Part shown: piece after piece, positions 8,824 to 33,461 of the stretch | Layout: each line of letters starts with the position of its first letter | Position numbering within the stretch: the first letter of the stretch is position 1 | Origin: a virus | Virus record (IMG/VR): IMGVR_UViG_3300025732_000152 | Coordinates: 1-33,461 of that record | Direction: 5' to 3' (one strand) | DNA: 33,461 nucleotides | Program-made: the position numbers and the translations under genes | Notes under the pieces: model-generated | The model's input: only the letters and a program-made list of their open reading frames with translations | What the model was told of the DNA's origin: nothing | The model's database searches: none

Positions 8824-9116
8824 ACTACCGCAACTCCAAGCTCACCGAGGCCGTGCGCCAGCTACCCTGCCAGCAGTGCGGCATCCAGGATGGCACGGTG
8901 GTAGCCGCGCACTCTAATCAGCTGAGGGACGGCAAGGGTAAGGGCATCAAGGCCCACGACTTCAGGATCGCAGCTCTATGCTATCGGTGCCATGCAGACT
9001 TGGATCAGGGCAGCAAGATGAGCAAGGAAGAGCGTAAGGAAGTATGGGAAGAGGCTCACCGGGGGACTATCGGTGAGCTCTTCTCTCGTGGTCTTATTGA
9101 CGTTGTAAAGCCTTGA
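8820..9116 (+). CDS. YbcO/DUF1364-like zinc-binding nuclease-type protein
   Basis: The TTG start overlaps the upstream TGA. The 98-residue product contains LPCQQCG (Cys-x2-Cys), AAHSNQ with a His and Asn, GKGKGIKAHD and LCYRCHADLD (Cys-x2-Cys-His). This order matches the DUF1364 (YbcO) family of lambdoid phages, an HNH-like zinc fold thought to act as a nuclease. It is the last gene of the rightward operon, and its final 23 bases overlap the end of the convergent giant gene. A role in processing recombination intermediates fits its location but is inferred. Confidence 0.85.
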   Translation: MNYRNSKLTEAVRQLPCQQCGIQDGTVVAAHSNQLRDGKGKGIKAHDFRIAALCYRCHADLDQGSKMSKEERKEVWEEAHRGTIGELFSRGLIDVVKP

Positions 9117-15100: not shown

Positions 15101-18100
15101 TTGGCACCTTGCTTGTCAAACTCTTTTTGTAAGCCTTTGACAACTACTTCCTTGGCGCGAGAGAAGGCCAGGATGTCACGCATAGACGTAGCCATGTTTT
15201 CGGCTGTGGCTTTGTCTACGCTGGTTTCCTGCGTGTTGTAAGAGACACCTGCGAACGTGCGCTCGCGGCGAATGTACTGGCCAACCTGAGTCAGCATACG
15301 GGCCACGGTCTGCTGCATCGGAATTCCACCAGCCTTGATGGCTTCTGCCAGATCAGAAATCTTATCCACAGCCAGGCTCATGTCCGTGCTGGAATAAAGA
15401 TCCATCACGTCAGGACGTTTGGCATACGTAGCCGAGGAGAAGAATGTGCCGAATGCTTTACGGACCAAGTTACGCACAAAGGATGCGCGCCCGGTCACCA
15501 GGCTTTCACCCGCTTTGGCCTTCTCTCTTTGTTCTTTGGTTCGAGCCTGGGTCTCACCAGCACCGCCAGCGTTGTGGCTCTCGTCAAAGATCATGTAGTT
15601 GCCAGCGGCAAACTGATTGATAAATCTCTGACGCTCGGTCTCTTTGCCTCTAACCGTTTGTAACTGGTTATACGTAGTGAAAACTACTTTGTAATCACCC
15701 AGGCTATCGTTTTGCTGCATCTTCTTGAGAACAGCATCCATCTCTGCACCGCCAGTTTTTGGAGGTCTGAGGGTTAAGTTGTTCTCAACAATCTCCCCAT
15801 TAACCTCTCGCAAAAGGGTATAGGGAATCGTTTCGTCATTGTTCGTAATCAGGATATTGGGCTTAGCTGTATCCAGGCCAAGCTCTTTGGTCATCCCGAT
15901 ATCGTCCAAGTCCCGGATCATGTCCGAGTACAGGTTGGGCTTCTCGGTCACAAAGAACGGAATCTTGTTGTTGATCAGCGCGTAACGGATCATCCCAGCC
16001 ACAACACGGCCCTTACCCACGCCGGTCTGGTCGCCAATGATGAAGCCTTTGCCGGCCTCTGCGTTGTAGATGGCCAGGGCTAGAGCATCAACCTGCTCAG
16101 CAGAGAACAACACCCGAACAGTCTCAGGATCCATTTCCAGAGACTCAGCAACGTAGTTATCCAGATCTCCGACCGAGCTCTCAATCTTGGCTAGAGAGTT
16201 TTCAATCGATTCAGCCATAGCCTTGGGAACCAGGGTTCCAATAGAGCTGGCTTTAGAGTGGGGATAGTAAGCAACCTGGTTTTCCGTCTCGGTCTCCAGG
16301 CCGGCACGGTCTGCTAGGCCAGATCCGACACGTTCACCTGAGACAACGCTAACTCCACCCAGCTTGGGAAGTCCACGTCCTTCAGCGCCTGCTTCGCCGG
16401 CTCGCTTGGCCCGCTCACCTGCGCCGGCCACTGGTTCTCCCTTTGCTCCACGCTCAGATACGTCAGCAGGTTTAGGTTGTACTTCACCAACGCCTCGCCC
16501 ACTTGGTTCGCGTTGTCCACGCTCGGTAGGTCTAGCCTCCGACACGCCTCGTTCGCCGCCTCCAGCGGGTTCTCTTCCTTCAGCGCTAGGTCCGCCACTC
16601 GGTCGCTCAGCGCCTCGACCCACTGCTTCTCGCTCAGCTTCCCGCTCGGCACTAACACCGACGTCAGCTCCGGCGGGGCCACGATCTTCTCGGGATACCA
16701 TGGGTTCATTTAGCTTCTCCTTCAGTTGTTCGTATGTGGTGATGAGCTCTGGCAGGTCAGCTGCAGGCAGATCGCGGGATGACTTGCCAACCCCATCAAT
16801 CACGATCACATCAACGGGATAGGTGGTGCCCTGCTTGGCGTACATGTTGCCGCCGGCAGTGAAGTGATCCACAACGTTGTACAGGTTGTACAGCTCGTAA
16901 TAGAAGTCACGCTTGGCACGGCCTCTGTAGCCCTCGCGGCGTCCCTCTTCGGTCGTAGCCTGGACACCGCCAACAATCAAGACAGCACGGCCGTCTTCCT
17001 TCATCCCAACCAAAGACTTCAGGACAATGTCGTGGTCGATGTTGCTGATCTCACCAGCCTTGCCAAACGGCGGGTTGGCAATAACAACATCAAATGCGTT
17101 GTTCTCAATGTCCATCTCCAGAGCATTACCCTGGGTAATGTCTGCGCCAGGCATGATGGATTTCAAAGCCTCAAAGCGACCCTTGTCCAGCTCGTTGGCT
17201 GTAACTTTGTCCGGGTTAGCCGCGATCAACAGCATGCCGTTGCCTGCAGTGGGCTCAAGCACGCTGGTTTTGTTGGTGATTCCAGCCAGCTCAGACGCCA
17301 CATAGGCCAGAGGGGCGGGCGTGGAGTAAGCCTGGTTGGCTACGCTGGTTGAGCTACGTACAGACAGATTTGGCTGGCGATCATAAAGGTCCACCAACTT
17401 ATCAAAAATGTCTTGAGGATTCTTGCCGTCTTTGACGATCTGACGAGCGGCAATAACTATCCCTGCCTCAATGGCTTCATCGGCTTTCTTGGCACCCTCT
17501 GTGCCCGGACGTGCATCAACATTAAATTTGTTGGTCAAGAACATGCGCGCAGCATTGATGTTGCCAAACTCATTGCCTTCCAGGAAGTGGTCAGCAATCG
17601 CCTGAGGATTGACGGCAGGAGCTTCTGCCAGACCTTCCATCGACTCAACAGCGATGACTTCTTTCTTGGAGCTAGCGCCCTGATCCTGGTACTTGCCGGC
17701 CATGCCAATGTAGGCACCCTGCAAGTGATCTAGAGTGATCTGGTCAGCAGCTTCGTCACCCAGCTTGGAACGGATCGTGTCCATCACAAACCGGGCAGCT
17801 TCCTTGAACTTGATCTTTCCAAGGCGGAAGGCTGCATCCATGATCCTGGTCAGGATCGGCATGAGCTTTTGCTCTTCCTCGGGGACGATGTTCATGCGAC
17901 CAGGCTTGGTCAGAAGCATGGACAGATCGCCGAGGGCGTCTTCCAGATCTTGCTTAGCCTTGGCTTTCTCGTCAGCTTCGGTAGGCTTGGCTTCAGGAGC
18001 TGCAGGCTCTACTGCTTTGGGAGCTGCGGGTTTTGTTGCGTTTATGGTTGCAGCGCGCTGAGCCTCTTGAAGAGTTCTAAACGTATTAGACGGGGATTCA

Positions 18101-20502
18101 ATTGCATCAGCATTACTGGCAGAAAAAGACTTTGGCCCAGTTTGTAAAACTTGTACTGATTGACCATTGATATCTTTTGTCCAGGTTTTTTGATTTTGAA
18201 AATTAGTTCCCTGTTTCCAGCCCTCCAGCGTCACTGCAGGCTTGGGAGCTTCAACTGCAAGGGCGGCAGGAGCTTCAGGAGCAGGAGCTACGGCAGGTGC
18301 CTTTGCGGCAGGTTGCAACACGTTTTCACGAATCATCGCCTCGGCTTCTTCGCCGGTCGGCTGTCTTGCACTGAGCCCGGGTGGCTTGATTTTGGTAAGC
18401 AAATCACGGCCAGATGGCGTCAAGATTCCTCTGCCGTTAATCATGCCACTTGCTAACAACACATCCTTGACAGGGCCATCTTTCAACGACTCGGTTGAAG
18501 CATCTTCCAGACCCATGTAGACCTGGATTGGTGTCGGTCCTACTGCTGGGGGTGTGGCAGGAGCTGGCGCAGCAGGAACAGGTGCCTTTGCTTTCTTCTC
18601 AAGATCAATTGCATATCTTGCGGCCTGCGCTTCGGCAACCTGACCAGTAAACCGACGAATACTGCCATTGACATATTGGCCTGAATCCGTGTCATAAAGC
18701 CCGGATCCATAACCAGAATCGGTTTTGAAAATGCGCGTCTGCATGCCGTCCGGCAAATCTGTCGAACGAATTACGCTTCCTACTGGAACGTCAGGCTGAG
18801 CTGGTTGCTCGGCGGCAGGCGTTACCGCAGGTGCGGCAGGCTCTTCCTTAACACCATTCTCAGTTAAGTAATCATTGATCCGAGAAAAACCAGACGGCGT
18901 TATTCCGCCTTTTGTTAAAGCATCTATCTGTTGAGTAATTTGTAGCCTTGTCTTTCCAGCAGACAAACCATCCTCAACAGTTTTAACTACCATCTTTCTT
19001 AGAAGAGCGGCGTCATCAGCTGATATTTCTTCATTTCTTGCGTTTTCCCTGGCGGGACCAAGAATGGGCCCAATACGAGCACTAAGCGGCTCAACCGCTG
19101 CAATAGGAGGCATTGCAGGGGGTGTAACTTGTTTCACTTCTGTCCCAAAAGTACTCACTTCTGGGGGTGTAACAGGCTCTGGTGTTACCTTTGGTTCTAC
19201 GGGTTTACCAGTAGAAACAGGCGGTTGTGCAGCAGGTCTTTCCTCTGTTTGAGCCAGGATCTCCCGCAGCATTTCGGAAGTATCTTGGGCCTCTGACGGA
19301 GCTGCTTGCGCCATGGGTTCGGCAGGCGGAGCAGGCGGGGCAGCAGGAGGCTCTGTGGGAGGCGCAGCAGCCTCGGGAGGGGTAACGGTAGGTGCAGGCT
19401 GTTTAAGCGCGCCAGGAAGGCCAGGAGTACGCAGGGAGCGTGCTGCCAGGGGAACTTCAACAGCCGCCCCTCCAAGCTCGCCCAACATCTCCAAGGCAAC
19501 ATCTTCCAGATCTACCTTGCCATAGGCTGCGAGCTGGCCACCGGCTTCAGAAATACCACCGCCCGCAATGTCGATACCAGCACCACCCAGGCCACGGCCA
19601 ACCTTCTGGGCAAGCGTGCGGCTGGCCATGATTTCGTTGGCACGGCTGGCCACTTGAGCCAGATCAGCGCCAGCACCAAGCTCAGTACGAGCCGCCTTGA
19701 TAGCAGCGTTCTTAGCCCCACCAGCAAACCTACCGCCGGCAAGCGTGGTAGCTGCGTCGATAGCAGCAGTGGTAGCGCCTTTGGTACGGGCGTCAGAGAT
19801 GGCTTGTTGCACAAACGCCTTGTCCTGCATCAGGGCCTGGACGTTACGCTCGGTCGGCTCTAGCCCACGGTTCTGCAGCTCTTTACCGATCAGGCCAATG
19901 AACTCAGAGCCGATCTCAACAGGGGCTTGGCCAGTGAATGCGCCGCCGATACCACCAACACCAGCACCAACGGCTGTCGCTCCTGGTAGAGGAATGGCCG
20001 CTCCAACCATAGCACCACCCTTACCGCCAGCCAACATGCCGACGATAGAGGGAACCATGTTTGCCGCCTGCTCAGCGGTCATGTACATCAAGCCCTTTGG
20101 ATTGGTAATGGCCTGACGCCCCACCTCATAGAGCATCTCGCCAATAGCCTTTGAGCTCTGCATGAACCCTTGAGCTTCTTCCCAGGCTTTGCCCTCTTCT
20201 TTGAAGGCACCCTTGATGTCTTTCAGCTCTTTGGGCTCATTGATCGCGGGCGTGGCTAGCTGCTCGGCAATTACGCGAGACTTACCGGCAACATCGCCGC
20301 CAGAGATGACGGCCGGGGCAACCTCAGCTGACGTTAAGGCTTGCTTACCACCCTTGACCAGGAGCTCGCCTACGTTGGATAAGAATCCAGGCTCTTTAGG
20401 AGGATTCTTGTGTGTGTAATTAGCCCACTGCCATGCCGTGTTTGGATCGGGGGCATCGACTTCATACGTTTTACCCCCAACATCAACTTCATAAGTAGGC
20501 AT
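9094..20502 (-). CDS. Giant polyvalent virion-type protein: methyltransferase, helicase, HExxH and LPD38-like regions
   Basis: This 3802-residue protein is the last gene of the late operon; GAGG lies before its ATG. It begins with MPTYEVDVGGKTYEVDAPD, then a Gly/Ala-rich hydrophobic region (about 150-330) and a Pro/Ala linker. An adenine-methyltransferase domain has EPTAGNG (about 1080) and NPPF (about 1143). An Arg/Glu/Gly/Pro-rich linker (about 1270-1400) precedes a strawberry-notch-type superfamily 2 helicase with GDQTGVGKGR (about 1493), DESHN (about 1638) and GRVHRTGQ (about 2040). HEVTHG at about 2725 and NPSEYW at about 2798 resemble a gluzincin metallopeptidase. Residues 3420-3600 resemble LPD38, and the end is a coiled coil. 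P1 DarB, a virion anti-restriction protein, combines methyltransferase and helicase motifs, so packaging and protection of injected DNA is a fair inference. Confidence 0.88.
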   Translation of the reverse strand: MPTYEVDVGGKTYEVDAPDPNTAWQWANYTHKNPPKEPGFLSNVGELLVKGGKQALTSAEVAPAVISGGDVAGKSRVIAEQLATPAINEPKELKDIKGAFKEEGKAWEEAQGFMQSSKAIGEMLYEVGRQAITNPKGLMYMTAEQAANMVPSIVGMLAGGKGGAMVGAAIPLPGATAVGAGVGGIGGAFTGQAPVEIGSEFIGLIGKELQNRGLEPTERNVQALMQDKAFVQQAISDARTKGATTAAIDAATTLAGGRFAGGAKNAAIKAARTELGAGADLAQVASRANEIMASRTLAQKVGRGLGGAGIDIAGGGISEAGGQLAAYGKVDLEDVALEMLGELGGAAVEVPLAARSLRTPGLPGALKQPAPTVTPPEAAAPPTEPPAAPPAPPAEPMAQAAPSEAQDTSEMLREILAQTEERPAAQPPVSTGKPVEPKVTPEPVTPPEVSTFGTEVKQVTPPAMPPIAAVEPLSARIGPILGPARENARNEEISADDAALLRKMVVKTVEDGLSAGKTRLQITQQIDALTKGGITPSGFSRINDYLTENGVKEEPAAPAVTPAAEQPAQPDVPVGSVIRSTDLPDGMQTRIFKTDSGYGSGLYDTDSGQYVNGSIRRFTGQVAEAQAARYAIDLEKKAKAPVPAAPAPATPPAVGPTPIQVYMGLEDASTESLKDGPVKDVLLASGMINGRGILTPSGRDLLTKIKPPGLSARQPTGEEAEAMIRENVLQPAAKAPAVAPAPEAPAALAVEAPKPAVTLEGWKQGTNFQNQKTWTKDINGQSVQVLQTGPKSFSASNADAIESPSNTFRTLQEAQRAATINATKPAAPKAVEPAAPEAKPTEADEKAKAKQDLEDALGDLSMLLTKPGRMNIVPEEEQKLMPILTRIMDAAFRLGKIKFKEAARFVMDTIRSKLGDEAADQITLDHLQGAYIGMAGKYQDQGASSKKEVIAVESMEGLAEAPAVNPQAIADHFLEGNEFGNINAARMFLTNKFNVDARPGTEGAKKADEAIEAGIVIAARQIVKDGKNPQDIFDKLVDLYDRQPNLSVRSSTSVANQAYSTPAPLAYVASELAGITNKTSVLEPTAGNGMLLIAANPDKVTANELDKGRFEALKSIMPGADITQGNALEMDIENNAFDVVIANPPFGKAGEISNIDHDIVLKSLVGMKEDGRAVLIVGGVQATTEEGRREGYRGRAKRDFYYELYNLYNVVDHFTAGGNMYAKQGTTYPVDVIVIDGVGKSSRDLPAADLPELITTYEQLKEKLNEPMVSREDRGPAGADVGVSAEREAEREAVGRGAERPSGGPSAEGREPAGGGERGVSEARPTERGQREPSGRGVGEVQPKPADVSERGAKGEPVAGAGERAKRAGEAGAEGRGLPKLGGVSVVSGERVGSGLADRAGLETETENQVAYYPHSKASSIGTLVPKAMAESIENSLAKIESSVGDLDNYVAESLEMDPETVRVLFSAEQVDALALAIYNAEAGKGFIIGDQTGVGKGRVVAGMIRYALINNKIPFFVTEKPNLYSDMIRDLDDIGMTKELGLDTAKPNILITNNDETIPYTLLREVNGEIVENNLTLRPPKTGGAEMDAVLKKMQQNDSLGDYKVVFTTYNQLQTVRGKETERQRFINQFAAGNYMIFDESHNAGGAGETQARTKEQREKAKAGESLVTGRASFVRNLVRKAFGTFFSSATYAKRPDVMDLYSSTDMSLAVDKISDLAEAIKAGGIPMQQTVARMLTQVGQYIRRERTFAGVSYNTQETSVDKATAENMATSMRDILAFSRAKEVVVKGLQKEFDKQGAKLAIEGEKTKVQSANFGSTMHNLINQMLLSLKAQDSVRHAIERLKAGEKVVMTVSNTMGSFLKSYADDMDLNVGDAVELSFKDLYNRYLEKQRIVTIKRPNGQREEYRLTDADLGPELTKQFNDIQKFIENAGFGSAPMSPIDYMHAELRKAGYKTEEITGRTMTLNYESGRPILTSRSANIKQRVKAVKNFNSGAVDVIILNQAGSTGLSLHASSKFKDQRKRHMIIVQPEVNIDTHMQMLGRVHRTGQVIPPAYSQMMADIPAEMRPAAILLKKMASLNANTTASRKSAVTAEGAVDFMNEYGGQVAQEYLRDNPEVYEALGGKKIMEIAEDPSEAGEEDIRKLTGYIPILSIKQQEEIYKDLVERYNDLIEREDSMGTNKLEAKAVDLDAKTIASVAITEDKGDPSVFARPAIMEKVDVKRTVKPYSKEEVERQVDENLISGSGNKKSELSVRHKAYVNAAVEKMEAEKEPDRVKIENFKSQNNAQYTHIKTVLTEFPIGTPVVVKHSKGMLVKGVVTDIQNKQKTKNPAAGSDWKMTIALADGDAKSISMTFSQIGSVYQLKRETETPWFNQETDKFEYIPMLDLFDKGATVRREKRWMVTGNILAGFAAVNNMGQIITYTKDDGTTAQGILMPRTFDFEKAQKNADVRLKNLAAVMDFFNTFGRNAEISTPDGNLRIAYMGGTEYRFVTPSSKREGGSFYLDKGLTDITGDLYKSGQIMRATVYDQDKANEAIQYLLADRGETLIAYNHKDEAREMFAPKIPLANVQPDVERESLDTTSNFVADRETLIRRYQSLRQKRGSIMRKFKKGEAGLNEQEEINTLDDVASQLKDEIAASKVKRTDAKNFFAQATKQWNEGNISDDVYAAIKTMYEKFPFVLEGLNLSVKQQPADSNAAGQFFSLARLVRLYKGTNGVQDPVTIRHEVTHGLEQMMTADAAADLIMDWTDKLGKAIKKEKSPKARAYFQAILEFFENPSIEAYKNAMGLMPSYDYYQYINPSEYWAVNAEKLMARKLGTAWDKFVLAAKRLFEGLKYMFGFDNQYVVHRIFNDIMTSKGERFTKAALNDYVEASVMGMLNLDENTRRNYKGKPAPLSVWDSPEKSKMDDWAYRWQDKHVDTKRVVQAVVKGIGEIADRFDAYLKETLYHGRVSKQTMDFLKRDFRPFIEKMDKMGVKVDEFEFYLQNRHAQEYNNLIAARNPGMPDAGSGIPTDDAIAYLNGLSKEEKAKYEELAKDIDKFVEGTQDMLVANGLETQERIDSWRDMFKHYVPLKRDPNELDFVNPSFGMGKGFAIKGDFSRTATGSLKTVVDILNNIALQREMAIVRSEKARVGRALYGMALQAPNPEFWMPINPDAVKNKKKLIAELQAMGLDPDTAENIFQQPRSPSIDKKTGLVQYRINPNVLNAENVFPVRINGKDRFIIFNPADERAKRMVKALKNLDANQLENGLDTVAELTRLIAAMNTQFNPVFGAWNFVRDVESAAVNLTGTPIADKRMEVVAGAIPALKAIYRDLRGKTPKDAEAKEWIDLYERFANAGGQTGYREQFTRAKDKATLVQREMARLDRSNVRRVAQSVADWLSDYNDAMENAVRLSAFKAGLESGMSEDRAAELAKNLTVNFNRKGSWTTNANAFYAFLNASVQGSARMAQLLFKRDDNGKISLTKGGKAVIAGGMMIGAMQAALLAFAGFDADEPPEFLKNKNLIIPNPFGQGYAIIPMPLGLNVFPNVARLVTEYALTQAGAMTGKRDLPKTILSIASAVLDAFNPLGSSGLIQTLSPTLSDPFFAIAENKDAFGRPISKENRATNPSPGWERSRDNASAISQGLAYGINYLTGGGKYGIGAFSPTADDIDYAFSQYVGGLGREVAKAAGFVKAKVEGEETPPYKVPILGKAYGETETPSAVSDKFYKNVTMLAELEGEMKRMREKRENLSEFMKDNPEYRFIQNANNLENQISKINKTIKEIQKRPETEQTKAQIERYKEQKQRMMNNFNERIKALQRQ
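16314..16709 (-). CDS. Possible overprinted gene inside the giant gene's linker
   Basis: In the +1 frame relative to the giant gene, an ATG at 16709 opens 131 codons starting MNPWYPEKIVAPPELTS. AAGGAG lies seven bases before the ATG, the same kind of site used by the small genes at the left end. The product has balanced, helix-type composition. The caution is strong: stop codons in this frame need a T in the second position of the giant gene's codons, which is rare in its Arg/Glu/Gly/Ala/Pro-rich linker, so the open frame is expected by composition. Its high GC at third positions (about 86%) has the same explanation. Only the start site argues for it. Confidence 0.25.
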   Translation of the reverse strand: MNPWYPEKIVAPPELTSVLVPSGKLSEKQWVEALSDRVADLALKEENPLEAANEACRRLDLPSVDNANQVGEALVKYNLNLLTYLSVEQRENQWPAQVSGPSEPAKQALKDVDFPSWVELALSQVNVSDLA

Positions 20503-23974: not shown

Positions 23975-24011
23975 TTTTAGCTCCTTGGGGGCATTTTATT
24001 CAATTGGTCAT

Positions 24012-26312
24012 TTATCGGGTACGGATATTTCCGAACATGTCTCTGTACGCCTCTGTTCCCCTGGGCTTACTGCCCGTGGACAAAAGGTACTTCAACAACG
24101 AGTTGACAGTTTCACTTCCAGCCGTACCCGCCAAGCCTGCATACTCCTGCAATTGCTTCAAAGGATCAACAGGCGCATTGGCTTGGGCAGCAAGAGCCGG
24201 AGCTGCGGGAGCTGCAACAGGTGCCACAGGAACCGGCAACCCAGTGGGCTTGACTGGAGGCGGGATCCGACCAATCGCCACAGGCCCCTGAGCATTCAGC
24301 AAACGTTGGGTCTCTGCATCGCTTTGATCTTGTAGACCGGCGGATTGCAAGGTCTTGATTATGTCAACGCCACCACTGGGAAGCCCATATTGGCCAGACC
24401 CAGCACCACCACCAAACGGATTAACCGGACCACTTGATGTGTAGCGGTCAAAACCCGCTCCACCACCACCAACCCCAACCGGAGGGCCAAACGTTGCACC
24501 TCGCGTAACAGCACCAGCATCTTTTCCAGGCTCAACCTGGGCTCCCTCAGTAGGCTGTTCCCGCTCCAAAGATCCAAGATAACTTGGCCTGCCGCCAAGA
24601 TTACCAAGGAAGTTAATATCCTCGTTGGATGGACCCGTAGGATCTATTTCAGCAAGACCAGAATCTTCTGATTCTCCTTGCGTAACTTGCTGTTGAGATC
24701 CATCACCCAAAAGCAAGGGGATCAGGCCGGCAATATCTTCTTGAGTAACTTGGTAGCCTGTCTTGTTAAGAGGGCTAGCCTTCATGCGCTCGCTGGCTTC
24801 AATTGTTGCCTCGTTAATACCACCTTGCTCACTCTTTTGGGTAATAGCCCGGTTCTGAGCAGCTTGTTTAATCAGACTGGCATAAGAAACTGACGGTTTC
24901 TTTTGTCCGCTTGGGAGGTATTGATCCTCCGGTGCTTCCATAGCAGAAACGGTGCCATTGGGATTGATGGTAATCGTGCTTCCATCATCACCGCGCAAAG
25001 TGTATCCACCTGAACGAGCCGCTTTAGCAACTGCATCAGTCAAATCAACTTCATTCTCGCCAGTGCCATAGGTGTACTTGACAACGTTACCTTCGTTATC
25101 AATCTCAAGCGTATCGCCGTTTGCACCTTTGATAGTGCTGGTTGATGCTTTCTCTGTGCCATGCCCCAAGAAATCTGAATACTGGCTAAGCGTGTCTTTG
25201 TCTGTAATGCCATATTGCTTGGCAACATTCAAATCAGTTAAGTCTTGAGCTCCAACTTGCTTGGCAAAATTAAAATCTTCAGTATTATTAACACCCAAGT
25301 TTCTGGCATAACCAAAATCCTGGGACGTATCAATGCCAAGCTGTTTTGCAAAGTCAATATCAAGTGCGCTTTGAGCACCAATATCCTTGGCTAAGTCAAA
25401 ATCTTCTTTGTTACTAACACCAATTTGCTTGGCATAATTAAAATCGTCAGCAGTGCTAAGACCAATGTCTTTAGCCAACTGCAAATCAAAGTTATCTTTG
25501 GCTCCAATTGCTTTGCCGACCTGAAGATCGTATGGGTTATCTGCCCCGATCTCTTTTGCATATTGGTAATCTTTTAGATCAGTAACTCCAATTGCCTTAG
25601 CGTCTTTCCAAGCGGCGGCATCATAACCAAACCCGTTATTGTTAGCTTCTTTGTAAGCGTTGTACTCGTCCTTGGCAAACTTGACTCCAAAGTCAATGGC
25701 CGCATTCAGAACGCCGGTGCTGTTACCCTGGATCGCAGCTGCAGTAGCACGGGTAATCTGCTCTTGAGTGGTCTTCGGAAGTTCTGTAAACCCAGGGATC
25801 TCCTGAGCAATAACTTGGGCGCAAGCGTTAGCACCGCCAGTTAGCAAAGCAACCGTCGGATCCTTACCTTGAGCAGCTTGGATGGCTGCATAGGTTGTTG
25901 TGGTCCCAATGTTCTTAGCGAAGGCATCAGGAACAATATCAGCATTCTTAACAATCTCGGTCAGCTTTTGAGAACCAATGTTGCCAACGTACTGCAGAGC
26001 CGTGGTCTTAACAGCTTGTCCAACATCGCCACCGTTCATGGCTGTGTTGAGACACATATTACCCACAGCGGCTGCAGCGGCCGGATATGCAGCGGCTAGC
26101 TCAGCGCCAAGAATCCAATTACCAATAGACGGTGCGGCAGCTGGAAATGCCATGCTAATGGCAACAGCGGCAAGTGCTTTTGGGTTTTCTAATACCGACT
26201 CTACGGCATCACCAACCTTCTGAGCAACTCTCCCAATCGCGTCATACGTATCGCCCGTAACCTTGCGTACTGCTGCAAGGCCTTTTTTTGCTACCTTCTT
26301 TGCGCCGCTCAT
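24012..26312 (-). CDS. Virion-type protein with ten exact 14-residue repeats
   Basis: The 766-residue protein begins with a basic helix (MSGAKKVAKKGLAAVRK) and then Ala-rich hydrophobic segments (about 45-95) that could insert in membrane. Residues 238-377 are ten tandem 14-residue repeats with consensus AK-x-[IL]-G-x5-D-[FL]-x-[YFL], without insertions or deletions, probably a helical solenoid. A short beta-type module follows (GANGDTLEIDNEGNV, GDDGSTITINPNG), then a Pro/Gly-rich tail ending FGNIRTR. The start overlaps the upstream stop (ATGA) with GAGG before it. Position among internal-protein genes suggests a virion or ejection role; this is inference. Confidence 0.75.
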   Translation of the reverse strand: MSGAKKVAKKGLAAVRKVTGDTYDAIGRVAQKVGDAVESVLENPKALAAVAISMAFPAAAPSIGNWILGAELAAAYPAAAAAVGNMCLNTAMNGGDVGQAVKTTALQYVGNIGSQKLTEIVKNADIVPDAFAKNIGTTTTYAAIQAAQGKDPTVALLTGGANACAQVIAQEIPGFTELPKTTQEQITRATAAAIQGNSTGVLNAAIDFGVKFAKDEYNAYKEANNNGFGYDAAAWKDAKAIGVTDLKDYQYAKEIGADNPYDLQVGKAIGAKDNFDLQLAKDIGLSTADDFNYAKQIGVSNKEDFDLAKDIGAQSALDIDFAKQLGIDTSQDFGYARNLGVNNTEDFNFAKQVGAQDLTDLNVAKQYGITDKDTLSQYSDFLGHGTEKASTSTIKGANGDTLEIDNEGNVVKYTYGTGENEVDLTDAVAKAARSGGYTLRGDDGSTITINPNGTVSAMEAPEDQYLPSGQKKPSVSYASLIKQAAQNRAITQKSEQGGINEATIEASERMKASPLNKTGYQVTQEDIAGLIPLLLGDGSQQQVTQGESEDSGLAEIDPTGPSNEDINFLGNLGGRPSYLGSLEREQPTEGAQVEPGKDAGAVTRGATFGPPVGVGGGGAGFDRYTSSGPVNPFGGGAGSGQYGLPSGGVDIIKTLQSAGLQDQSDAETQRLLNAQGPVAIGRIPPPVKPTGLPVPVAPVAAPAAPALAAQANAPVDPLKQLQEYAGLAGTAGSETVNSLLKYLLSTGSKPRGTEAYRDMFGNIRTR
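25182..25601 (-). repeat. Ten 42-base repeats coding a 14-residue solenoid
   Basis: The repeats begin at the Ala-Lys codons at 25601 and continue without gaps. Representative units are AKEIGADNPYDLQV, AKDIGLSTADDFNY and ARNLGVNNTEDFNF. The nucleotide sequences of the units have diverged more than the protein pattern, so the repeat is old and under selection at the protein level. Confidence 0.85.
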
Positions 26313-26713
26313 GCTAACCTCACTTTTGTTAGGTAGGTTCTACCTTCTCCATCGTCTATCTTCTCAGTTGTTACCTGGAAGATTGGGAGCTTACTAAGAA
26401 TGCCGGCAAACTCTTTCTTGTCGTAAGGAATCTGCACTTCCTTGTAACCATCCTCACGAAGCTGCATCAATGCCTTGAAAAGATATTGAATACCTTTTAT
26501 GACAGAGACACCGCCGTTAATAACGTGTGCTTCAGCGACACCTTCAGCAACATCGTCATAAATAAGCAACGCGTCGCCAGACCGAATAATTTTCATTCCG
26601 TTATTTATGGCATCTTCTAGACCGGCAGCATACTCCTCCACAGTGGCATACCCCTCTGGATAGTTATTCTTTAGGTCGTTACTGAGAATCTCTTCAATAC
26701 TCATGTCTGCCAT
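26309..26713 (-). CDS. Small protein of the structural region, possible GNAT-like fold
   Basis: This 134-residue protein starts MADMSIEEILSNDLKN after AAGGA. The pattern ALLIYDDVAEGVAEAHVIN, then FKALMQLREDGYKEVQIPYD and a final beta pair (FQVTTEKI, RTYLTKVRL), resembles small acetyltransferase-like proteins encoded in the tail region of podovirus genomes. The acetyl-CoA loop (RxxGxG/A) is not evident, so enzymatic activity is doubtful. The gene is coupled to the following repeat-protein gene through ATGA. Confidence 0.65.
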   Translation of the reverse strand: MADMSIEEILSNDLKNNYPEGYATVEEYAAGLEDAINNGMKIIRSGDALLIYDDVAEGVAEAHVINGGVSVIKGIQYLFKALMQLREDGYKEVQIPYDKKEFAGILSKLPIFQVTTEKIDDGEGRTYLTKVRLA

Positions 26714-26722
26714 GTTGAATCC

Positions 26723-28114
26723 TTACTGCGTCAGATCGTAGAAAGAGATGGACCCCAATCCATCCCCCGTTGTTGCGCCAGACACCGTGCGTACAGCAAG
26801 TGTGTAGATATCGCTCACCCCAGCCAAGGACACCCCCAGCTGCAAGTCCCAGTTGTACCCGGTCGGAACACTTGTTTCGCTAACGCCAGCACTACCTGAG
26901 GAAGTGACATAGTCTGTCTGAGCAATGGTCCCAATAGAGCTAATAGCCGTGGCTGCAACGTCATATTCCACGTTGCTGTCAGATGGAACTGTAGCCGCCC
27001 AGGTTGCTCCCGTCAAAGTCGGGTTCTTCAGCAAAGCCACTTCGTAGTTCTGGCTGGTTGTGGGAAGAAACTGTACCCGGTTTGGTAGTACCACCGCGCC
27101 AGTCCGACCAGAAGCCAATCGAATAGACACAATCGGGTAGAACGTAGCCGCCGTGTTAATGGTCGTAAAGATTGTGGTGCGACGCGCCACATGGTCAATT
27201 GACGTCTGCTCAAACCCGCCCTCAGATACAACAGAGCAACAGATCTGGGTCAACGTTGCGGCCACCGCCGAGGTCGTGGTTGTAATCTCATACCTTACAG
27301 GCAGAATGGCCGTGGTCATGTAGACCGTGGTGCCATAGACGTTTGCAGTGTTAAATGTGTGGCAAACAATGTATTCACCGTTAATGATGAACCCACAACG
27401 GACCGAGCCTACACCCAACCATTCAAAGTCCATCCACAGAATCTGCGGTTTTGTTAAGTCTAAAGTATACCCACTGGTGCCCGTCCCATCTAAGGGGTCG
27501 CCATTCCAATCAGCCTGGTTGACTGTACGGGCATCGCTGGGAGTTCCTGAGGTGTTAGAACGCAAGACAAAAGAATTAACCCCATCTACCTTCTGGAAGA
27601 ACACACCGTTCTGAGTATTGAAATAACCAACGCGCTGGGTCAGGTTGACGCTGTTACTCGCATCCATCACAAAGGTAGCAAGCACCAATAACCCCTTACC
27701 GGGCTGATATGGGAAGCTCCGGTAGGTCTGACGCACTACAGAACCCACGCCACCGGCCGTCACGCTCATGCTGACGCTGGCCTGGTTTGTATTGAACGTG
27801 GTGGACCCTGTGCCTGTCGTCGAAGAGTCAAACTGGTTATCAGCAGCGTAACGGTTCTGGCTATCAAACAGGGTATAGGGCTGGCTAACCCGCTGTCGAC
27901 CAAACGCATCCAGGGCTGTGGGCGGAAATGAGATTGGTACTTCTGTATTGGAGGCCATAAGCTGTCCTACGATCTTATTGAGCTGGTTGAAGTACAGCCG
28001 TAACACATTGTTGAACTGCTCTTGGTATTGGGAGCTGTATTGTCCCGGGGCAAGAGGCAAGTTCGGGGGAGTAACCCGTAGCAGTTCAGCATCTGATGTG
28101 ACAATCAACGTCAT
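26723..28114 (-). CDS. Phage structural protein with FDSQNRY motif
   Basis: The 463-residue protein begins MTLIVTSDAELLRV, followed by PPNLPLAPGQYSSQYQEQ and FNNVLRLYFNQLNK, an N-terminal module seen in several tail-associated proteins. DAFGRQRVSQPYTLFDSQNRY near residues 69-89 is characteristic of a family of virion proteins from aquatic phages. The remainder is Thr, Ser and Val-rich beta structure, as in receptor-facing or decoration proteins. The start overlaps the upstream stop by ATGA. It may be a head-decoration or tail-associated protein; the exact position in the virion is not clear from sequence. Confidence 0.75.
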   Translation of the reverse strand: MTLIVTSDAELLRVTPPNLPLAPGQYSSQYQEQFNNVLRLYFNQLNKIVGQLMASNTEVPISFPPTALDAFGRQRVSQPYTLFDSQNRYAADNQFDSSTTGTGSTTFNTNQASVSMSVTAGGVGSVVRQTYRSFPYQPGKGLLVLATFVMDASNSVNLTQRVGYFNTQNGVFFQKVDGVNSFVLRSNTSGTPSDARTVNQADWNGDPLDGTGTSGYTLDLTKPQILWMDFEWLGVGSVRCGFIINGEYIVCHTFNTANVYGTTVYMTTAILPVRYEITTTTSAVAATLTQICCSVVSEGGFEQTSIDHVARRTTIFTTINTAATFYPIVSIRLASGRTGAVVLPNRVQFLPTTSQNYEVALLKNPTLTGATWAATVPSDSNVEYDVAATAISSIGTIAQTDYVTSSGSAGVSETSVPTGYNWDLQLGVSLAGVSDIYTLAVRTVSGATTGDGLGSISFYDLTQ

Positions 28115-30480
28115 GAGTTGCCTCTACGCCCATCAGGCCTGATGTCAATACGAGGCGCTCCAAGTTGCCACTGCAATCCCAACTGGTTACCCTGAACCTT
28201 AAACACCAGCTGACGCCCGCGCACACGCACATAGACCTGGCCAGTGAACTCCTCAACCGGGGCCGATGCAATACGGCTGATCGTAGCGTTGTCTGAACCA
28301 CCAACAGAGGCTGGATTGGTATATCCCGACCCAGAGTTCTGCAACGGGATCAAGGTCATAGTGACCTGAGGAGTCGTCTCCCCAGTAGAACTTCTAAACG
28401 TCAAGTCAGGCAGGATACGCCAGATAAAGCCAAAGTTATGGCCGTCGCTGATGTCAAATTCTGAAGACGAGATATACGAGTCAATGGCCGCAGGTACGCC
28501 GGTTATGTTGTCGTCATTACCGTTCTCGTGGTACACCAGATTGTTAGACGTTGAATTGATGTACGGAGCAGCCAGCGGATAGTCCAAGGAACCAGAGTCT
28601 AGCCACGCCGTGCGAGCCATGTTGCCGTAGTACCAAATATCCTCAAGATAGTTGTAAACCACGTACTTATCTATCTGGGTTGAATTAGCCGAGCAGTAGA
28701 ACCACCAGACCTCGTTAAAGCCCTCGTTAGTCCCGCTATACACCTGCTGAGCCTGAGCCAGGTTGATATTGCTATAGATATACTGACGCAGGTCACAACG
28801 CAAGGTAGAGACACGGCCGTCGTATTTATAGAACTTGTCCACACCCATCCAGTACACCACACCAGATGCAACAGACGTAGCGTTCTGACCCATGATGGAG
28901 ATGTTGTCTCCCAGGATCTGGCTACCCCAGACAGTCGGAGCGCCCAAGTACTGCAGTGAATACACCGAGGAGTCCGTGAACACCACAATCTCTTGGCGGG
29001 TCTGCAAGCACGTCACAATCTCTGAGCCATGGGATAGGCGCAAACTGCCAGCCTGGTTGGTAGCGGCAGGGGTCCACTCCACCACAGACTCTTGGTCCGA
29101 CCAGCGGATCAACATGGGGTCTTGGGCGGTAGCCCCGTAGTCATTACAGCCAAAGGCAAACACAAACCGGCTGATGTCAGACACAAAGATCAAATTCTGA
29201 ATCGTTGGAACACCAGACGCGCCAGACAGAGAGGTGACCGGGATCCCCCGGGCCGCAATAGTATGCGTGCCAGACTGAGAGCCAGAAGTAGTGATTGGCG
29301 TACCACCAGCTGTAGCCGCAAGGTTACATGTACCACTAGACGCATTGACAACGTAATACACAGTGCCAGGAGTCAGACCAGTCGGCAACGCCCCGGTCGT
29401 GGTCAGCATGATGGCGTCCCCGTTGGCAAAGTTCACACTGGCCGTCAGCACGCCAGGGGTGGCTATGGTGATGGTGACAGGAGCGCCATTCACGTTGTAA
29501 GTGGCATTCCAGTAGTACATAGCCCCACCACGGGGACCAAATACTAGATCTTCACCAAAGTTAGACTGGCTCCACAGGCGCAACGCATCTGTACCAGTAG
29601 CTCCAACGCCCCAGGCTCCTAAGCCCCAACCGCCTGCACCCCATCCCGTCAAGGCCACCGTGTACTCAGGGCCGGTATTGATCTGGTACATAGCGTACAC
29701 CGTGCCTCCCCCGCTAGCCGTGGTAGACGTGGCTTTGGCAGTGGCCGTATGGATTCCAGACTGCGTGCCGGTCGGAACGATCGCCGTGCCCCCAGAAGTG
29801 GCAGCAAGCTGGAATGTGTACCCTGAAGTATTAACGACGTAATAGGTCGTGCCTGCCACAAAACCTGTAGGCAAAGCGCCCGTGGTGGATAACACCACTT
29901 CAACGTTGTTGGCCAGCTGAAACTGGGCCGTAAATACGCCTGTCGAGAGAACTAGGTCTACCGTGGATTCTGCAGTTATGTTGTAGGTAGTGGCAGACTG
30001 CAAGGAGATCTTGTATTCCCCAAGTAACGTCAGGCCACCTATGGCAGAAGAGCCGTTAAACGTTACATACGCGCCATCAGTAAACCCGCCAGCAGCGTCA
30101 GTTACCAGGACTGTCGAGGAGTTCAGAATGGTCCCGAACGGGTTTGTCAGGGTGGTAGTGGCCCTAATAGGCGTAATATCGTAGTACGCACCGCCGTTGG
30201 ATATATAGAACTTTAGGTTTGTACCAACGCCAATCAGGTTAAGCGAGGTAAGAGTCACCCAGTTCCACAGAGACCGGCACACGCCCTTAAAGTAATTGGC
30301 AGAGATCTGAACCCAACCGCCCAATTTTTCAGGGGTTCCAGCACGGAAACGAACCTTCTCAGACTCGTACCAGCCGCCAACCACCTCGGTGCCAGCATTG
30401 ACTGGGCCCAAAGATTCTGAGGCATACCGCGTATTTTCACGCGACACACCTGGACGAAACATTATTTTCTTGAGCGGCAT
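28111..30480 (-). CDS. P22 gp10-like tail accessory/DNA stabilisation protein with two inserted repeats
   Basis: The 789-residue protein begins MPLKKIMFRPGVSRENT and has GGWYESEKVRFRAGTPEKLGGW (about 35-56), the N-terminal signature of the packaged-DNA stabilisation protein family that closes the portal in P22-like phages. The rest is beta-rich with several Trp-containing strands (VWWFYCSAN, VYWMGVDKFYKY). It is longer than P22 gp10 (about 470 residues). Part of the excess is two copies of a small domain at about 201-245 and 363-408, both with TGALPTG and YYVVN followed by LAAT and GGT. The start has AGGG upstream. It follows the endolysin gene and overlaps the next gene by ATGA. Confidence 0.8.
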   Translation of the reverse strand: MPLKKIMFRPGVSRENTRYASESLGPVNAGTEVVGGWYESEKVRFRAGTPEKLGGWVQISANYFKGVCRSLWNWVTLTSLNLIGVGTNLKFYISNGGAYYDITPIRATTTLTNPFGTILNSSTVLVTDAAGGFTDGAYVTFNGSSAIGGLTLLGEYKISLQSATTYNITAESTVDLVLSTGVFTAQFQLANNVEVVLSTTGALPTGFVAGTTYYVVNTSGYTFQLAATSGGTAIVPTGTQSGIHTATAKATSTTASGGGTVYAMYQINTGPEYTVALTGWGAGGWGLGAWGVGATGTDALRLWSQSNFGEDLVFGPRGGAMYYWNATYNVNGAPVTITIATPGVLTASVNFANGDAIMLTTTGALPTGLTPGTVYYVVNASSGTCNLAATAGGTPITTSGSQSGTHTIAARGIPVTSLSGASGVPTIQNLIFVSDISRFVFAFGCNDYGATAQDPMLIRWSDQESVVEWTPAATNQAGSLRLSHGSEIVTCLQTRQEIVVFTDSSVYSLQYLGAPTVWGSQILGDNISIMGQNATSVASGVVYWMGVDKFYKYDGRVSTLRCDLRQYIYSNINLAQAQQVYSGTNEGFNEVWWFYCSANSTQIDKYVVYNYLEDIWYYGNMARTAWLDSGSLDYPLAAPYINSTSNNLVYHENGNDDNITGVPAAIDSYISSSEFDISDGHNFGFIWRILPDLTFRSSTGETTPQVTMTLIPLQNSGSGYTNPASVGGSDNATISRIASAPVEEFTGQVYVRVRGRQLVFKVQGNQLGLQWQLGAPRIDIRPDGRRGNS

Positions 30481-30488
30481 CTCGATCC

Positions 30489-30965
30489 CTACGACATGAA
30501 CAGGGCGTGTTCGTCAAGCCGACGGTTCTGCAACCCTTTGAGTATTTTGCCACCAGCCATGCAATACTTCAACAGTTCTTGACCCGCGCCTTCTTTGTCG
30601 CCCCTATTGAGTTTTTGACGAAGCGTCGAACGCTGGAGTGTTCCCAGACCGACGTTAAAACTGAAAGACACAAGAGCGTCAAACATGCTTTGTGTAAGAG
30701 GAGCAGTGATGTAGGTGTGAACCCCTCGCTCAAAGCGAGCCAGATCTGCGCGAAGTATTCCATCAACTTCCTCCATGCTGAAGACCCTGAAATCCTCGAT
30801 CTTCAAGGCAAACCCATCCCGCTGGTCGATGGGCAACTTACCCTGCTCCGGGTACAACACATGCCCAACGCCAATCGTCCATAGCTTTGCTGGACATCTG
30901 TAAGGCTTTTGTCTTACACCTTCATGGTGTTTGATCATAGCCACGGCTTTAGGGCTGACGTTCAT
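30489..30965 (-). CDS. Endolysin, GH24 T4-type lysozyme with E-C-T catalytic triad
   Basis: The 158-residue protein matches T4-type lysozymes: E15 in HHEGVRQKPY, C24, T30 in CPAKLWTIGVGH. The spacing is the usual E-8-D/C-5-T, here with Cys in place of Asp, as in several phage members. ALVSFSFNVGLG and QNRRLDEHALF are later family motifs. The enzyme cleaves the glycan strand of peptidoglycan. There is no signal or anchor segment, so it should depend on the holin. The start overlaps the holin stop (ATGA), and the tail gene follows nine bases on. Confidence 0.92.
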   Translation of the reverse strand: MNVSPKAVAMIKHHEGVRQKPYRCPAKLWTIGVGHVLYPEQGKLPIDQRDGFALKIEDFRVFSMEEVDGILRADLARFERGVHTYITAPLTQSMFDALVSFSFNVGLGTLQRSTLRQKLNRGDKEGAGQELLKYCMAGGKILKGLQNRRLDEHALFMS

Positions 30966-31477
30966 TTACCAAATGCCCGACCGCCAAAATGGAACGCAAT
31001 GATGCTGGCAAACAGCGCCTGGGTCTCGTCGTCCCACAATTGATCAGCCATGTCTTGGAACCCAACGCCGGTGCTCAGGCCATGGTAAACCAAGGCGCAG
31101 TCAATACCAACCAGCAGGAAGAAGAAACCATAGGTAATAGCTGGGCGCACACTTGCGCGGAAGTTCTTCATCCACTGGCTAGTGCCCTCGTTGAGCGCCG
31201 TGTCGTGGGCGTAGATGGCCTGCATCTCAGCCTGCTGGGCGGCAATCATGGAGACCTTCTCGTTGGACTTGGTCTCAAGCTCGATCTGTTGGGTGTGGAT
31301 ATTCTCGACCCGTTCTTGGGCTTCAAACCCCAGCTTGCGCATCTCAAGCTCCCGGGCGATCTGCATCTGGGCCAGCTCCAGCTCGTGCTTCTTGTCCGAC
31401 CGGTCTTGAAAGAAGTCCAGGATCTTGGGCAAGCCGCCCATCAGGAACGAGATCAGGGTGGATAGTAGTGTCAGCAT
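30962..31477 (-). CDS. Three-helix holin (3TM holin type)
   Basis: The 171-residue protein has a hydrophobic N-terminus (MLTLLSTLISFLMGGLP), a long charged coiled-coil-type middle (ELELAQMQIARELEMRK to AEMQAIYAHD), a membrane span at ITYGFFFLLVGIDCALVYH (about residues 114-132) and a third hydrophobic segment ALFASIIAFHFGGRAF at the end. This is the layout of the holin family with three membrane segments found in phages and gene-transfer agents, which forms the pore that releases the endolysin. It overlaps the endolysin gene by four bases. Confidence 0.85.
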   Translation of the reverse strand: MLTLLSTLISFLMGGLPKILDFFQDRSDKKHELELAQMQIARELEMRKLGFEAQERVENIHTQQIELETKSNEKVSMIAAQQAEMQAIYAHDTALNEGTSQWMKNFRASVRPAITYGFFFLLVGIDCALVYHGLSTGVGFQDMADQLWDDETQALFASIIAFHFGGRAFGK

Positions 31478-31483
31478 TAGTGG

Positions 31484-31954
31484 TTACCCTTTGATGTTGA
31501 AGTTGAGATTCTTGTGGTTGGGGTAGTTAACAATGACCTCGCCCTCTGGGCACTTGTATTTGATATGTGCCAACAGAGTAGCCTGCCCTGGCGCAACCTT
31601 TTGCTCGGTATCCAGCTTAAATTTATACCCAAACTTGTCTACGTCAGATGAGGCAGGTCCAGAAAACGTTGCAATACTTGGCTTGGCTGGATGCACAACA
31701 AAATCGGCATCGCGCACTTCTAGCTTGAAACTGATGACTTCACAATCGTCGCGGTTCTTTTTACGGGCTACAACAACTTTGAACTCGTCATTTGCAAAGC
31801 CATCGCTAATACTAAAAAACCCTGGAGACCATTCCAAAATGTCTTTCTTGAAGATGCCCATTTTGTCGGCAAGAGTCCAACCGCCACCAACCATCGCAAA
31901 GGATGCAGTAACAATCCCAATGGTTTTAGACGCATCTTCAAGGCCGAACATCAT
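31484..31954 (-). CDS. Membrane-anchored protein of the lysis cassette, unknown
   Basis: I start it at the ATG at 31954, which overlaps the upstream TGA and has AAGGA eight bases upstream; a GTG nine codons earlier is less likely. The 156-residue product has one N-terminal membrane span (TIGIVTASFAMVGGGWTLA, about residues 11-29). The rest is a soluble beta-rich domain that ends NYPNHKNLNFNIKG. The single anchor and position before the holin would fit an accessory lysis protein or an inhibitor, but it lacks the coiled coil of classical spanins. Function unknown. Confidence 0.65.
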   Translation of the reverse strand: MMFGLEDASKTIGIVTASFAMVGGGWTLADKMGIFKKDILEWSPGFFSISDGFANDEFKVVVARKKNRDDCEVISFKLEVRDADFVVHPAKPSIATFSGPASSDVDKFGYKFKLDTEQKVAPGQATLLAHIKYKCPEGEVIVNYPNHKNLNFNIKG

Positions 31955-32499
31955 CTCCACAATCCTTTTGAAATCCCCCACTGGACCAGCCAGTACATCG
32001 CTAGACTAAACGCCGCAATGATTGCCACTGAGAGCTGTATGTCCTGGATCATGTCCTTGCGGTCCTGGGCCTTGGCGGCATCAATGATCTTCTGCTTAAC
32101 CGCCTCAGCCTCTTCCTTGGCAATCTGCCGCTTCATGCTCTCTCTGAGCTTGACCATGTCGTCCCAGATCTTTCCCTGGCCAGACCACACCAGCATCTCG
32201 TACAGCTCGTACTCCTGCCTCTCTAGCTCCCGTCGCTTCAGGACAATCTCCATCGCCTCTGACGTTAGCTCTGCATCCGTTTTCTTGGGCTTGACCCCGT
32301 TGGCCTTGTCCCACAGCGCCTCGCGCTTCTCTCGCTCCTTGACCGCCTCGGCCTTCTCAATGATGGCCTTCTGGTCAAAATACCCGACGATACTCTTGGT
32401 TAACTCATTGGCGTCCTTACCGAGCTTGATAACCTCCTTGATGGTGGCTACCGCCGCTTTGGCCCCGGCAAATGCAACGCCAATGGTTATCGGGTCAAT
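31951..32499 (-). CDS. Coiled-coil membrane protein, apparent ATT start
   Basis: The protein core begins I/M-DPITIGVAFAGAKAAVATIKE. Related phage proteins start MDPITI, and here the corresponding codon is ATT at 32499-32497, preceded by GAGG five bases upstream. No ATG, GTG or TTG lies in frame nearby, and the only upstream ATG (32601) would overlap the previous gene by 95 bases. From ATT the product has 182 residues: an Ala-rich amphipathic helix, a long charged coiled coil (about 45-155) and one C-terminal membrane span (SVAIIAAFSLAMYWLVQWG). This architecture could act in lysis or membrane attachment. It is coupled to the next gene by ATGA. Confidence 0.65.
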   Translation of the reverse strand: MDPITIGVAFAGAKAAVATIKEVIKLGKDANELTKSIVGYFDQKAIIEKAEAVKEREKREALWDKANGVKPKKTDAELTSEAMEIVLKRRELERQEYELYEMLVWSGQGKIWDDMVKLRESMKRQIAKEEAEAVKQKIIDAAKAQDRKDMIQDIQLSVAIIAAFSLAMYWLVQWGISKGLWR

Positions 32500-32506
32500 T
32501 TCAACC

Positions 32507-32677
32507 TCACTGAACCGGGGCTTCTTCCGGCTTGGTCTCAGGCATCGGCACTTGAGGGATTGCCTGCTCCTGAATGGCTTGAACCAGCTGGAACACCTCA
32601 CCGTACGGGCGCGTACCCAGATACTGCAGAGTGGCGTTCACCAGGCTCAGGCTCAACTCGATCTTCTTATCTTCCAT
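32507..32677 (-). CDS. Small phage protein, KIELSLSLVNATLQYLG type
   Basis: This 56-residue product starts MEDKKIELSLSLVNATLQYLG with GGAG six bases upstream. It continues PYGEVFQLVQAIQEQA and a Pro/Glu-rich tail. Short proteins with this helical pattern are frequent in phage late operons between tail-fibre and lysis genes. No function is known. Its stop is seven bases before the apparent ATT start of the next gene. Confidence 0.7.
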   Translation of the reverse strand: MEDKKIELSLSLVNATLQYLGTRPYGEVFQLVQAIQEQAIPQVPMPETKPEEAPVQ

Positions 32678-32727
32678 GGATATCTCCAAATGCAACCGCT
32701 GAGATGGGGCAGCGGCGAAACCCCTTA

Positions 32728-33015
32728 TTACCAAGGCAGGCCAGAGGCAGACACAGGATTCTTCTTCGCGTCGATCTTGGCTTGCACGGCCGCTTCAGTG
32801 GCGTCCTTGTCCACCGTCTCCCAGATCCAAGCTAAAACTTGATCTTGCGTCAGACCATCATAGGCAGCAACAGGCTCGCCATCCCATGAGCAGGTGGCAT
32901 ACACAGAGTCAGAGATGTCCCCATCAACTCCAACGCATTGCCAGTGCGCAGTGTGAACAAAATTATCAGAGGTACGGCGCTCCATTGGGGATACGGTCCA
33001 GGTGATTGTGGTCAT
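32728..33015 (-). CDS. Tail-fibre-linked small protein, TTITWTVSPMERR type
   Basis: The 95-residue product starts MTTITWTVSPMERRTSDNFV, has WQCVGVDGDISDSVYATCSW in the middle and GLTQDQVLAWIWETV near the C-terminus. Proteins with this order sit directly after tail-fibre genes in many aquatic phages and may be fibre-assembly factors or small virion proteins; this is known by context only. AAAGGA precedes the ATG. It follows the fibre gene by 18 bases. Confidence 0.75.
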   Translation of the reverse strand: MTTITWTVSPMERRTSDNFVHTAHWQCVGVDGDISDSVYATCSWDGEPVAAYDGLTQDQVLAWIWETVDKDATEAAVQAKIDAKKNPVSASGLPW

Positions 33016-33033
33016 GGTGATTCCTTTCAGGGG

Positions 33034-33461
33034 TTATTTAGCTTCAAGCGCCGTGATACGGGCGGTTAGTTGGGTGATGAGGGCTTGTTGTTCCTGAATA
33101 CACTTCATCAATGCATATTGCAGATCAGTCTGGTAGATGGACAGGCGCATCTTGGGTTCTTCGCCTTCTTTTGCCCAGTTGCTTTCCATCACCAACTCAG
33201 GAGCGACCGTTTGAACATCTTGCGCTACAACACCCAGCGTCAGGCCGGGGTCTTCTTCCATGTTCTGGTCGATGTAGTTGAAGGTCTGCACGGGAATGGC
33301 GCAGATCTTGGCAAGATAGTCACCTGCCGGAGCAAAGTTGGTTTTTTCTCTGCGGTCTGACAGGTTGGTATTGTTGGCCTGGTAGTTGGAAAGACCGCCG
33401 TTTGAAAGCAGCAAAAACCTATTTGTAGGGCCGCTATCAGTGCCTTTTAGAAAATAATTTG
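33034..33461 (-). CDS. C-terminal part of a tail fibre with S74 intramolecular chaperone
   Basis: The frame is open to the right edge (upstream residues include NYFLKGTDSGPTNRF), so only the last 142 or so residues of a longer fibre are seen. LSDRREKTNF carries the Ser and Lys of the peptidase S74 self-cleavage site. TLGVVAQDVQTVAPELV and LQYALMKCIQEQQALITQL are the other conserved parts, ending in a coiled coil (TARITALEAK). In this family the domain folds the trimeric fibre and then cleaves itself off. The main fibre, and so the receptor specificity, lies outside the window. Confidence 0.9.
   Translation of the reverse strand, partial: NYFLKGTDSGPTNRFLLLSNGGLSNYQANNTNLSDRREKTNFAPAGDYLAKICAIPVQTFNYIDQNMEEDPGLTLGVVAQDVQTVAPELVMESNWAKEGEEPKMRLSIYQTDLQYALMKCIQEQQALITQLTARITALEAK

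Follow-up and report, generated by a model that had tools for sequence, protein, structure and literature searches.

The locus described here raises the question of whether a phage gene can have ATT as its regular initiation codon and, if so, whether its relatives do the same. The window, by which we mean the whole stretch of DNA that was analysed, is an IMG/VR virus record of 33,461 bases, and the gene of interest is read, together with its neighbours, on the minus strand. An earlier note, made from the letters alone, had proposed an ATT start within positions 32497-32509; the position is correct, although the strand was left unstated, and the immediate context that it described is confirmed, in that the codon opens the run ATT GAC CCG ATA ACC ATT (I-D-P-I-T-I) and is preceded at proper distance by a GAGG, which the stop of the upstream gene overlaps (Table 1). 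The statement that no usual start stands nearby in frame holds for 101 nt upstream, but a GTG is present at 102 nt; downstream of ATT, no in-frame ATG, GTG or TTG is found within 150 nt. With start codons compared across related phages, ATT remains the best reading of the initiation codon, and we consider it highly likely that the 182-aa gene is translated from AUU in a manner coupled to the gene upstream, with a yield that is probably limited.

Table 1. Features of the window near the ATT codon, ordered as they are read on the minus strand.
Feature	Position	Strand	Basis or remark
Tail-fibre C-terminus, Peptidase_S74	33034-33459	minus	
DUF7936 protein	32728-33015	minus	
56-aa gene upstream of the ATT gene, ATG start	32507..32677	minus	
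In-frame GTG, 102 nt upstream of ATT	32599..32601	minus	rejected alternative start
TGA stop of the 56-aa gene, overlapping GAGG, 10 nt before ATT	32507..32509	minus	
GAGG, Shine-Dalgarno-like, 5 nt before ATT	32505..32508	minus	sequence; anti-SD duplex -7.2 kcal/mol (computed)
Second TGA in the frame of the 56-aa gene, 1 nt before ATT	32501..32503	minus	sequence
Proposed ATT (AUU) initiation codon of the 182-aa gene	32497..32499	minus	sequence; comparison with relatives
Third TGA in the frame of the 56-aa gene, made by ATTGAC (AUUGA element)	32495..32497	minus	sequence
182-aa gene with ATT start	31951..32499	minus	relatives, purifying selection
Gene just downstream of the 182-aa gene	31484..31954	minus	possible ATG start
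phrog_6637 relative, weakly like holins (phrog_3427)	30962..31477	minus	profile match
Phage lysozyme, PF00959	30489..30965	minus	profile match

A protein search of IMG/VR with the 182-aa sequence returned 29 loci (family A), 27 of which reach the start (L029 and L030 fall short). The codon at the start position is ATT in ten of these relatives (L002-L009, L019 and L028), GTG in 12 and ATG in four, while one (L022) carries ATG one codon earlier; with the window included (n=28) there are 11 ATT, 12 GTG, four ATG and the one displaced ATG. The expectation that relatives begin MDPITI is borne out in part only. All told, 26/27 relatives have ATT, GTG or ATG at this very position. Seven of the ATT forms (L002-L008) are near-identical contigs bearing seven different IMG dataset numbers. 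By eye, sequence similarity between the family A lineages starts at this codon, and the upstream genes differ among the window group, L009, L019 and L028. The start codons of neighbouring genes served as controls: ATG was found in all eight loci holding the 56-aa gene, in 22/22 loci for the holin-like gene, in 21/23 for the lysozyme (the other two alignments stop short of the start) and in all 12 of the 19 tail gene loci in which the start is readable, while the start of the DUF7936 gene is readable in the window only (1/8).

The use of ATT at this codon extends well beyond family A. We define a bare ATT as an ATT at the motif position without ATG or GTG directly before it. The pattern DP[IV][TS]IGxAF was found in at least 119 IMG/VR stretches, with at least 49 ATG, at least 27 GTG and at least four bare ATT; at least eight lay in other proteins, and at least 31 had another codon directly after ATG or GTG. 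A complete scan restricted to ATT gave 43 stretches, of which four lie in another protein, 27 follow ATG or GTG and 12 are bare. Complete scans for ATC/ATA (24/24 directly after ATG or GTG) and for CTG/TTG (6/6 directly after ATG) contained no bare instance of these four codons, and the difference from ATT (12/39 bare against none) has a Fisher p of 0.002, with relatedness ignored. Two of the bare matches, L088 and L198, belong to a different protein family (family B). A family B search retained 80 of its 85 loci, and with L088 added the start is readable in 80 of 81, L280 being left out as clipped by the contig edge; 65 begin with GTG followed by TTT or TTC and 15 have bare ATT, the canonical GTG standing one codon earlier than the ATT position. 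A further scan for ATT before [DE]P[FL]TIG gave 15 stretches, 13 bare, one after ATG and one in another protein. The total is 25 public contigs with bare ATT in addition to the window, comprising nine junction sequences and, by eye, about seven types of upstream gene; the 25 contigs bear 24 different IMG dataset numbers, though some may be re-assemblies of one sample. Bare ATT at this codon would accordingly seem to occur more than by chance, since 25 contigs have it whereas the other four codons invariably follow a canonical start. Putative AUU starts thus recur in two phage protein families that have a DPITIG N-terminus in common. Outside IMG/VR, phage records held no match to the 182-aa protein and no near DNA match to positions 24001-33461 of the window; they yielded one weak relative for the family C query and one for the family B query (MW202484), the latter with a GTG start and a TGA 1 nt before it. 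As an aside, the GenBank start of that gene (L301, MW202484.1 25041-25062) is at 25062, and the GTG that follows the upstream TGA by 1 nt, at 25041, fits the family N-terminus. Among bacterial genomes, none of 320 stretches with the pattern encodes a relative.

One rival to an AUU start is the upstream GTG, from which the frame is open and which any gene caller that bars ATT would choose; the protein would then have a 34-residue N-terminal extension overlapping the 56-aa gene. Within the seven closest relatives, this GTG is kept in L002 and L003 and absent from L004-L008, in which the same interval is devoid of ATG, GTG and TTG and offers CTG alone in frame before ATT. To survey such alternatives we tabulated 25 bare-ATT loci, namely the window, nine of the ten family A contigs (L003 being left outside) and the 15 of family B. 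An ATG, GTG or TTG between the preceding in-frame stop and ATT is found in five (the window, L002, L009, L028 and L281), in each case a GTG or TTG 27-102 nt away, and in none of the other 20; in 15 of the 25 (L019 and 14 of family B) CTG is absent as well, which argues against any alternative start. Indeed, a long extension is impossible in L019, L227, L296 and L270, where only six, three, three and one codons, respectively, separate the in-frame stop from ATT, none of them ATG, GTG, TTG or CTG. As 16/27 family A relatives begin with GTG or ATG at the ATT position, we regard initiation at the distant GTG as improbable.

The feature that unites the bare-ATT junctions is the end of the upstream gene. 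In 9/9 of them a frame that runs open upstream for 66 codons or more terminates no further than 10 nt ahead of ATT and no later than the third base of this codon; for L223, L227 and L296, which have additional open frames upstream, the frame was chosen by conservation (L227 with L296) or by likeness to the upstream gene of GTG relatives (L223). Recurrence of ATT in other lineages, each time at an upstream stop, goes beyond what the earlier note had described, as does the fact that ATTGA itself supplies a stop to the upstream frame: ATTGAY reads TGA in that frame in 8/9 junctions. In four of the nine (L019, the L223/L088 group, L227 and L296) this TGA, which matches the third TGA of the window, is the upstream stop itself, giving what would be an AUUGA stop-start overlap. 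In the window, L009, L028 and the L222 group the upstream gene already ends 10 or 4 nt ahead of ATT, which leaves the TGA of ATTGAY in reserve; the actual stop of L009 sits at the site of the window's second TGA, and three stops fall within 15 nt in the upstream frame of the window. The ninth junction, L270, has an upstream frame identical with that of the ATT gene, closed by TAA 6 nt before ATT. A stop triplet 4 nt before the start was seen in 5/7 bare-ATT contexts versus 12/68 canonical contexts of a wider set without family B. Within family A, however, a close upstream stop does not set ATT apart, because a stop 4 nt ahead of the start also marks the canonical forms (9/9 loci examined), despite exchange of the upstream gene. 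By eye, the gene just upstream has been swapped between close relatives in this family (L009, L010, L015, L019, L022, L028 and window 32507-32677).

The frame relation just described could also be accounted for if the 182-aa protein were a fusion to the upstream gene, made by a +1 ribosomal frameshift at the upstream stop, given that the relation is the same in 8/9 junctions and that a shift just before the stop would enter the ATT frame. Such an account would need a shift site in each of about seven different upstream genes and leaves aside the GTG or ATG found at the same place in relatives; moreover, the upstream frame of L270 is already the same frame and is closed by TAA, and the window has three stops in succession to be passed. 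We find it hard to credit. As to why ATT alone should be found bare, ATC or ATA before GAY cannot form a TGA in the upstream frame, and stop formation may for that reason explain the exclusivity of ATT.

A third possibility is that the start codon has been lost and that the gene is unexpressed or decaying in the ATT lineages; AUU is a poor start, and loss of ATG or GTG would normally be harmful. Values of dN/dS of 0.02-0.13 in 12/14 pairs (the other two being saturated), pairs of ATT forms included, show that the family A gene is subject to purifying selection, and the reading frames are full-length. ATT is also retained at nine junctions while other Ile codons vary: in the bodies of bare-ATT genes ATT accounts for 32/73 Ile codons in five family A sequences and 126/246 in the 15 of family B (L003 excluded), and by our own arithmetic the constancy at nine independent junctions would be expected with a probability of about 0.001, although independence holds only in part. 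A dead gene is on these grounds quite unlikely. Lastly, a sequencing or assembly error for ATG, conceivable for a single virus record, is refuted for practical purposes by the identical ATT in the near-identical L002-L008 and in lineages whose upstream genes differ, and was, like the three preceding accounts, weighed and rejected.

Phylogenetic trees suggest that start codons in these families have been exchanged repeatedly. On the family A tree (built with the first codon removed) and on the family B tree (78 of 80 rows, two short rows having been dropped; 14 of the 78 ATT) the ATT and canonical forms interleave, with at least three and at least four changes between ATT and a canonical start, respectively, and a single ATT clade is rejected in both (AU p 4e-6 for family A and 4.6e-6 for family B). 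In a quick family B tree L296 (ATT) groups with L249 (GTG) with an SH-aLRT of 98. We infer the direction of any such change rather than observe it. Alignment of ATT forms with canonical relatives having similar upstream genes shows a 6-nt gap between L019 and L022 and a 9-nt gap between L223 and L225, each spanning the stop of the other form together with its start, in whole or in part, and a 5-nt gap between L222 and L262 which spans the start alone. After such gaps, the remaining ATTGAY would be read as AUU by the gene itself and as UGA by the frame upstream. Recombination has probably moved some ATT junctions, because L227 and L296 have a common upstream gene (85% identical, with the same AATTGA junction) and lie in different parts of the family B tree; L028 of family A and L222 of family B likewise have similar upstream genes. 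Given this probable transfer, the changes on the trees are not a count of mutations and may exceed the number of mutational origins.

Shine-Dalgarno-like sites accompany the ATT codons. With family B included and contexts collapsed on the last 12 nt, mean anti-SD pairing is -6.6 for ten ATT contexts, compared with -3.1 for 49 ATG and -3.4 for 35 GTG contexts; the ATT sites pair more strongly (p 0.0008 vs ATG and 0.010 vs GTG, relatedness ignored). Loci judged by eye to hold the motif in other proteins (L062, L066, L073, L074, L099, L105, L120 and L164) were dropped before these counts. Duplex energies in the ten ATT contexts range from -2.4, the weak site of L227, to -10.6, and without family B the GTG sites match the ATT sites (-6.58 vs -6.66).

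It is reasonable to postulate from this arrangement that ribosomes finishing the 56-aa gene at its TGA (two further TGAs of that frame begin 4 nt before ATT and at its third base), together with ribosomes drawn by the GAGG, would set initiator tRNA on AUU. The 182-aa protein would then begin with fMet. As AUU fits the initiator anticodon at only two of three positions, IF3 should disfavour it, and the yield is expected to be low. The possible ATG of the gene just downstream overlaps the stop of the 182-aa gene (ATGA, 31951-31954, minus strand), and given this overlap the three consecutive genes (56-aa, 182-aa and 31484..31954) may all be coupled; among the 29 loci, relatives of the third are found only in L002-L004.

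Both elements of this reading, AUU initiation and stop-start coupling, are already known separately, and the present case would vary both. To our knowledge, well-described AUU starts are few. In phage T4, gene 26 has an internal AUU start that gives a shorter product; that example has phage AUU initiation in common with ours and differs in being an internal start of one phage and not a recurrent main start. A further case is E. coli infC, the autoregulated gene of IF3, which starts with ATT and is discriminated by IF3 (PMC5472188). There too AUU replaces a canonical start, whereas the gene of the window is a phage gene with no reason for autoregulation, and its AUU recurs in several lineages at an upstream stop. 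E. coli pcnB has an AUU start limiting expression, according to a title cited in PMC13009471; AUU and presumed low yield are common to both, but pcnB is chromosomal. In S. aureus, cvfC1 (AUU) and ccpN (AUA) combine a non-canonical start with a strong SD and reach about 10% of AUG expression, rising to 30% for ccpN in rich medium (PMC13009471); these are host genes, however, and cvfC1 is first in its operon and so uncoupled there from an upstream stop. As regards coupling, AUGA and UAAUG overlaps and termination-reinitiation, as at M13 geneV-geneVII, place stop and start a few nucleotides apart (PMC2268962, PMC9955659), the RNA phage GA coat-lysis junction being a further example of termination-reinitiation; our junctions are similar, except that AUU gives AUUGA and not AUGA. 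Complexes with non-canonical codons are destabilised by IF3, and inactivation of ribosome recycling leads to such codons being used for initiation downstream of a stop (PMC2268962). AUA placed in an AUAA junction failed to initiate in an E. coli coupling reporter that lacked an SD (PMC9955659), and coupling alone may therefore not suffice. A literature search on phage AUU or ATT starts and on the AUUGA junction gave, among the matches listed, no title or abstract opening that describes such a phage start.

What these families offer is a set of related phage genes in which AUU is used repeatedly, while close relatives carry GUG or AUG at that codon or an adjoining one. Such natural pairs lend themselves to asking how a start disfavoured by IF3 is tolerated or favoured by selection, and whether AUU is compensated for by a strong SD together with a stop upstream. 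They also mark a likely blind spot of annotation, since a gene caller that bars ATT will assign a false start or drop the gene. A more ambitious proposal, which we put forward tentatively and think less probable than not, is that AUUGA is a recurrent stop-start element in its own right, the same five nucleotides closing the upstream gene and opening its neighbour at a codon whose weakness is deliberate. Synthesis of the DPITIG protein, encoded next to the lysis genes, would then depend chiefly on ribosomes that have just terminated; its ratio would be low, and its level would follow how active IF3 or ribosome recycling is in the infected cell. Were this so, the same gene callers would overlook the element itself.

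The 182-aa protein, with its DPITIG N-terminus, has no Pfam match at E 0.1 and a weak profile match over residues 1-152 to phrog_32327, of unknown function (E 0.00058, 20.8 bits). Its structure model is all-helical and of low confidence (mean pLDDT 51.7), and its C-terminal segment is hydrophobic, hydropathy being highest over the 19 residues that start at 154. A role in lysis, whose genes it adjoins, would be a guess. In the window at large, Rfam gave zero matches at gathering thresholds and a tRNA search found none. About one third of the window is occupied by a single open reading frame of 3802 aa (9094-20502, minus strand), a giant phage protein with stretches which, by eye, we take to be helicase-like and methyltransferase-like.
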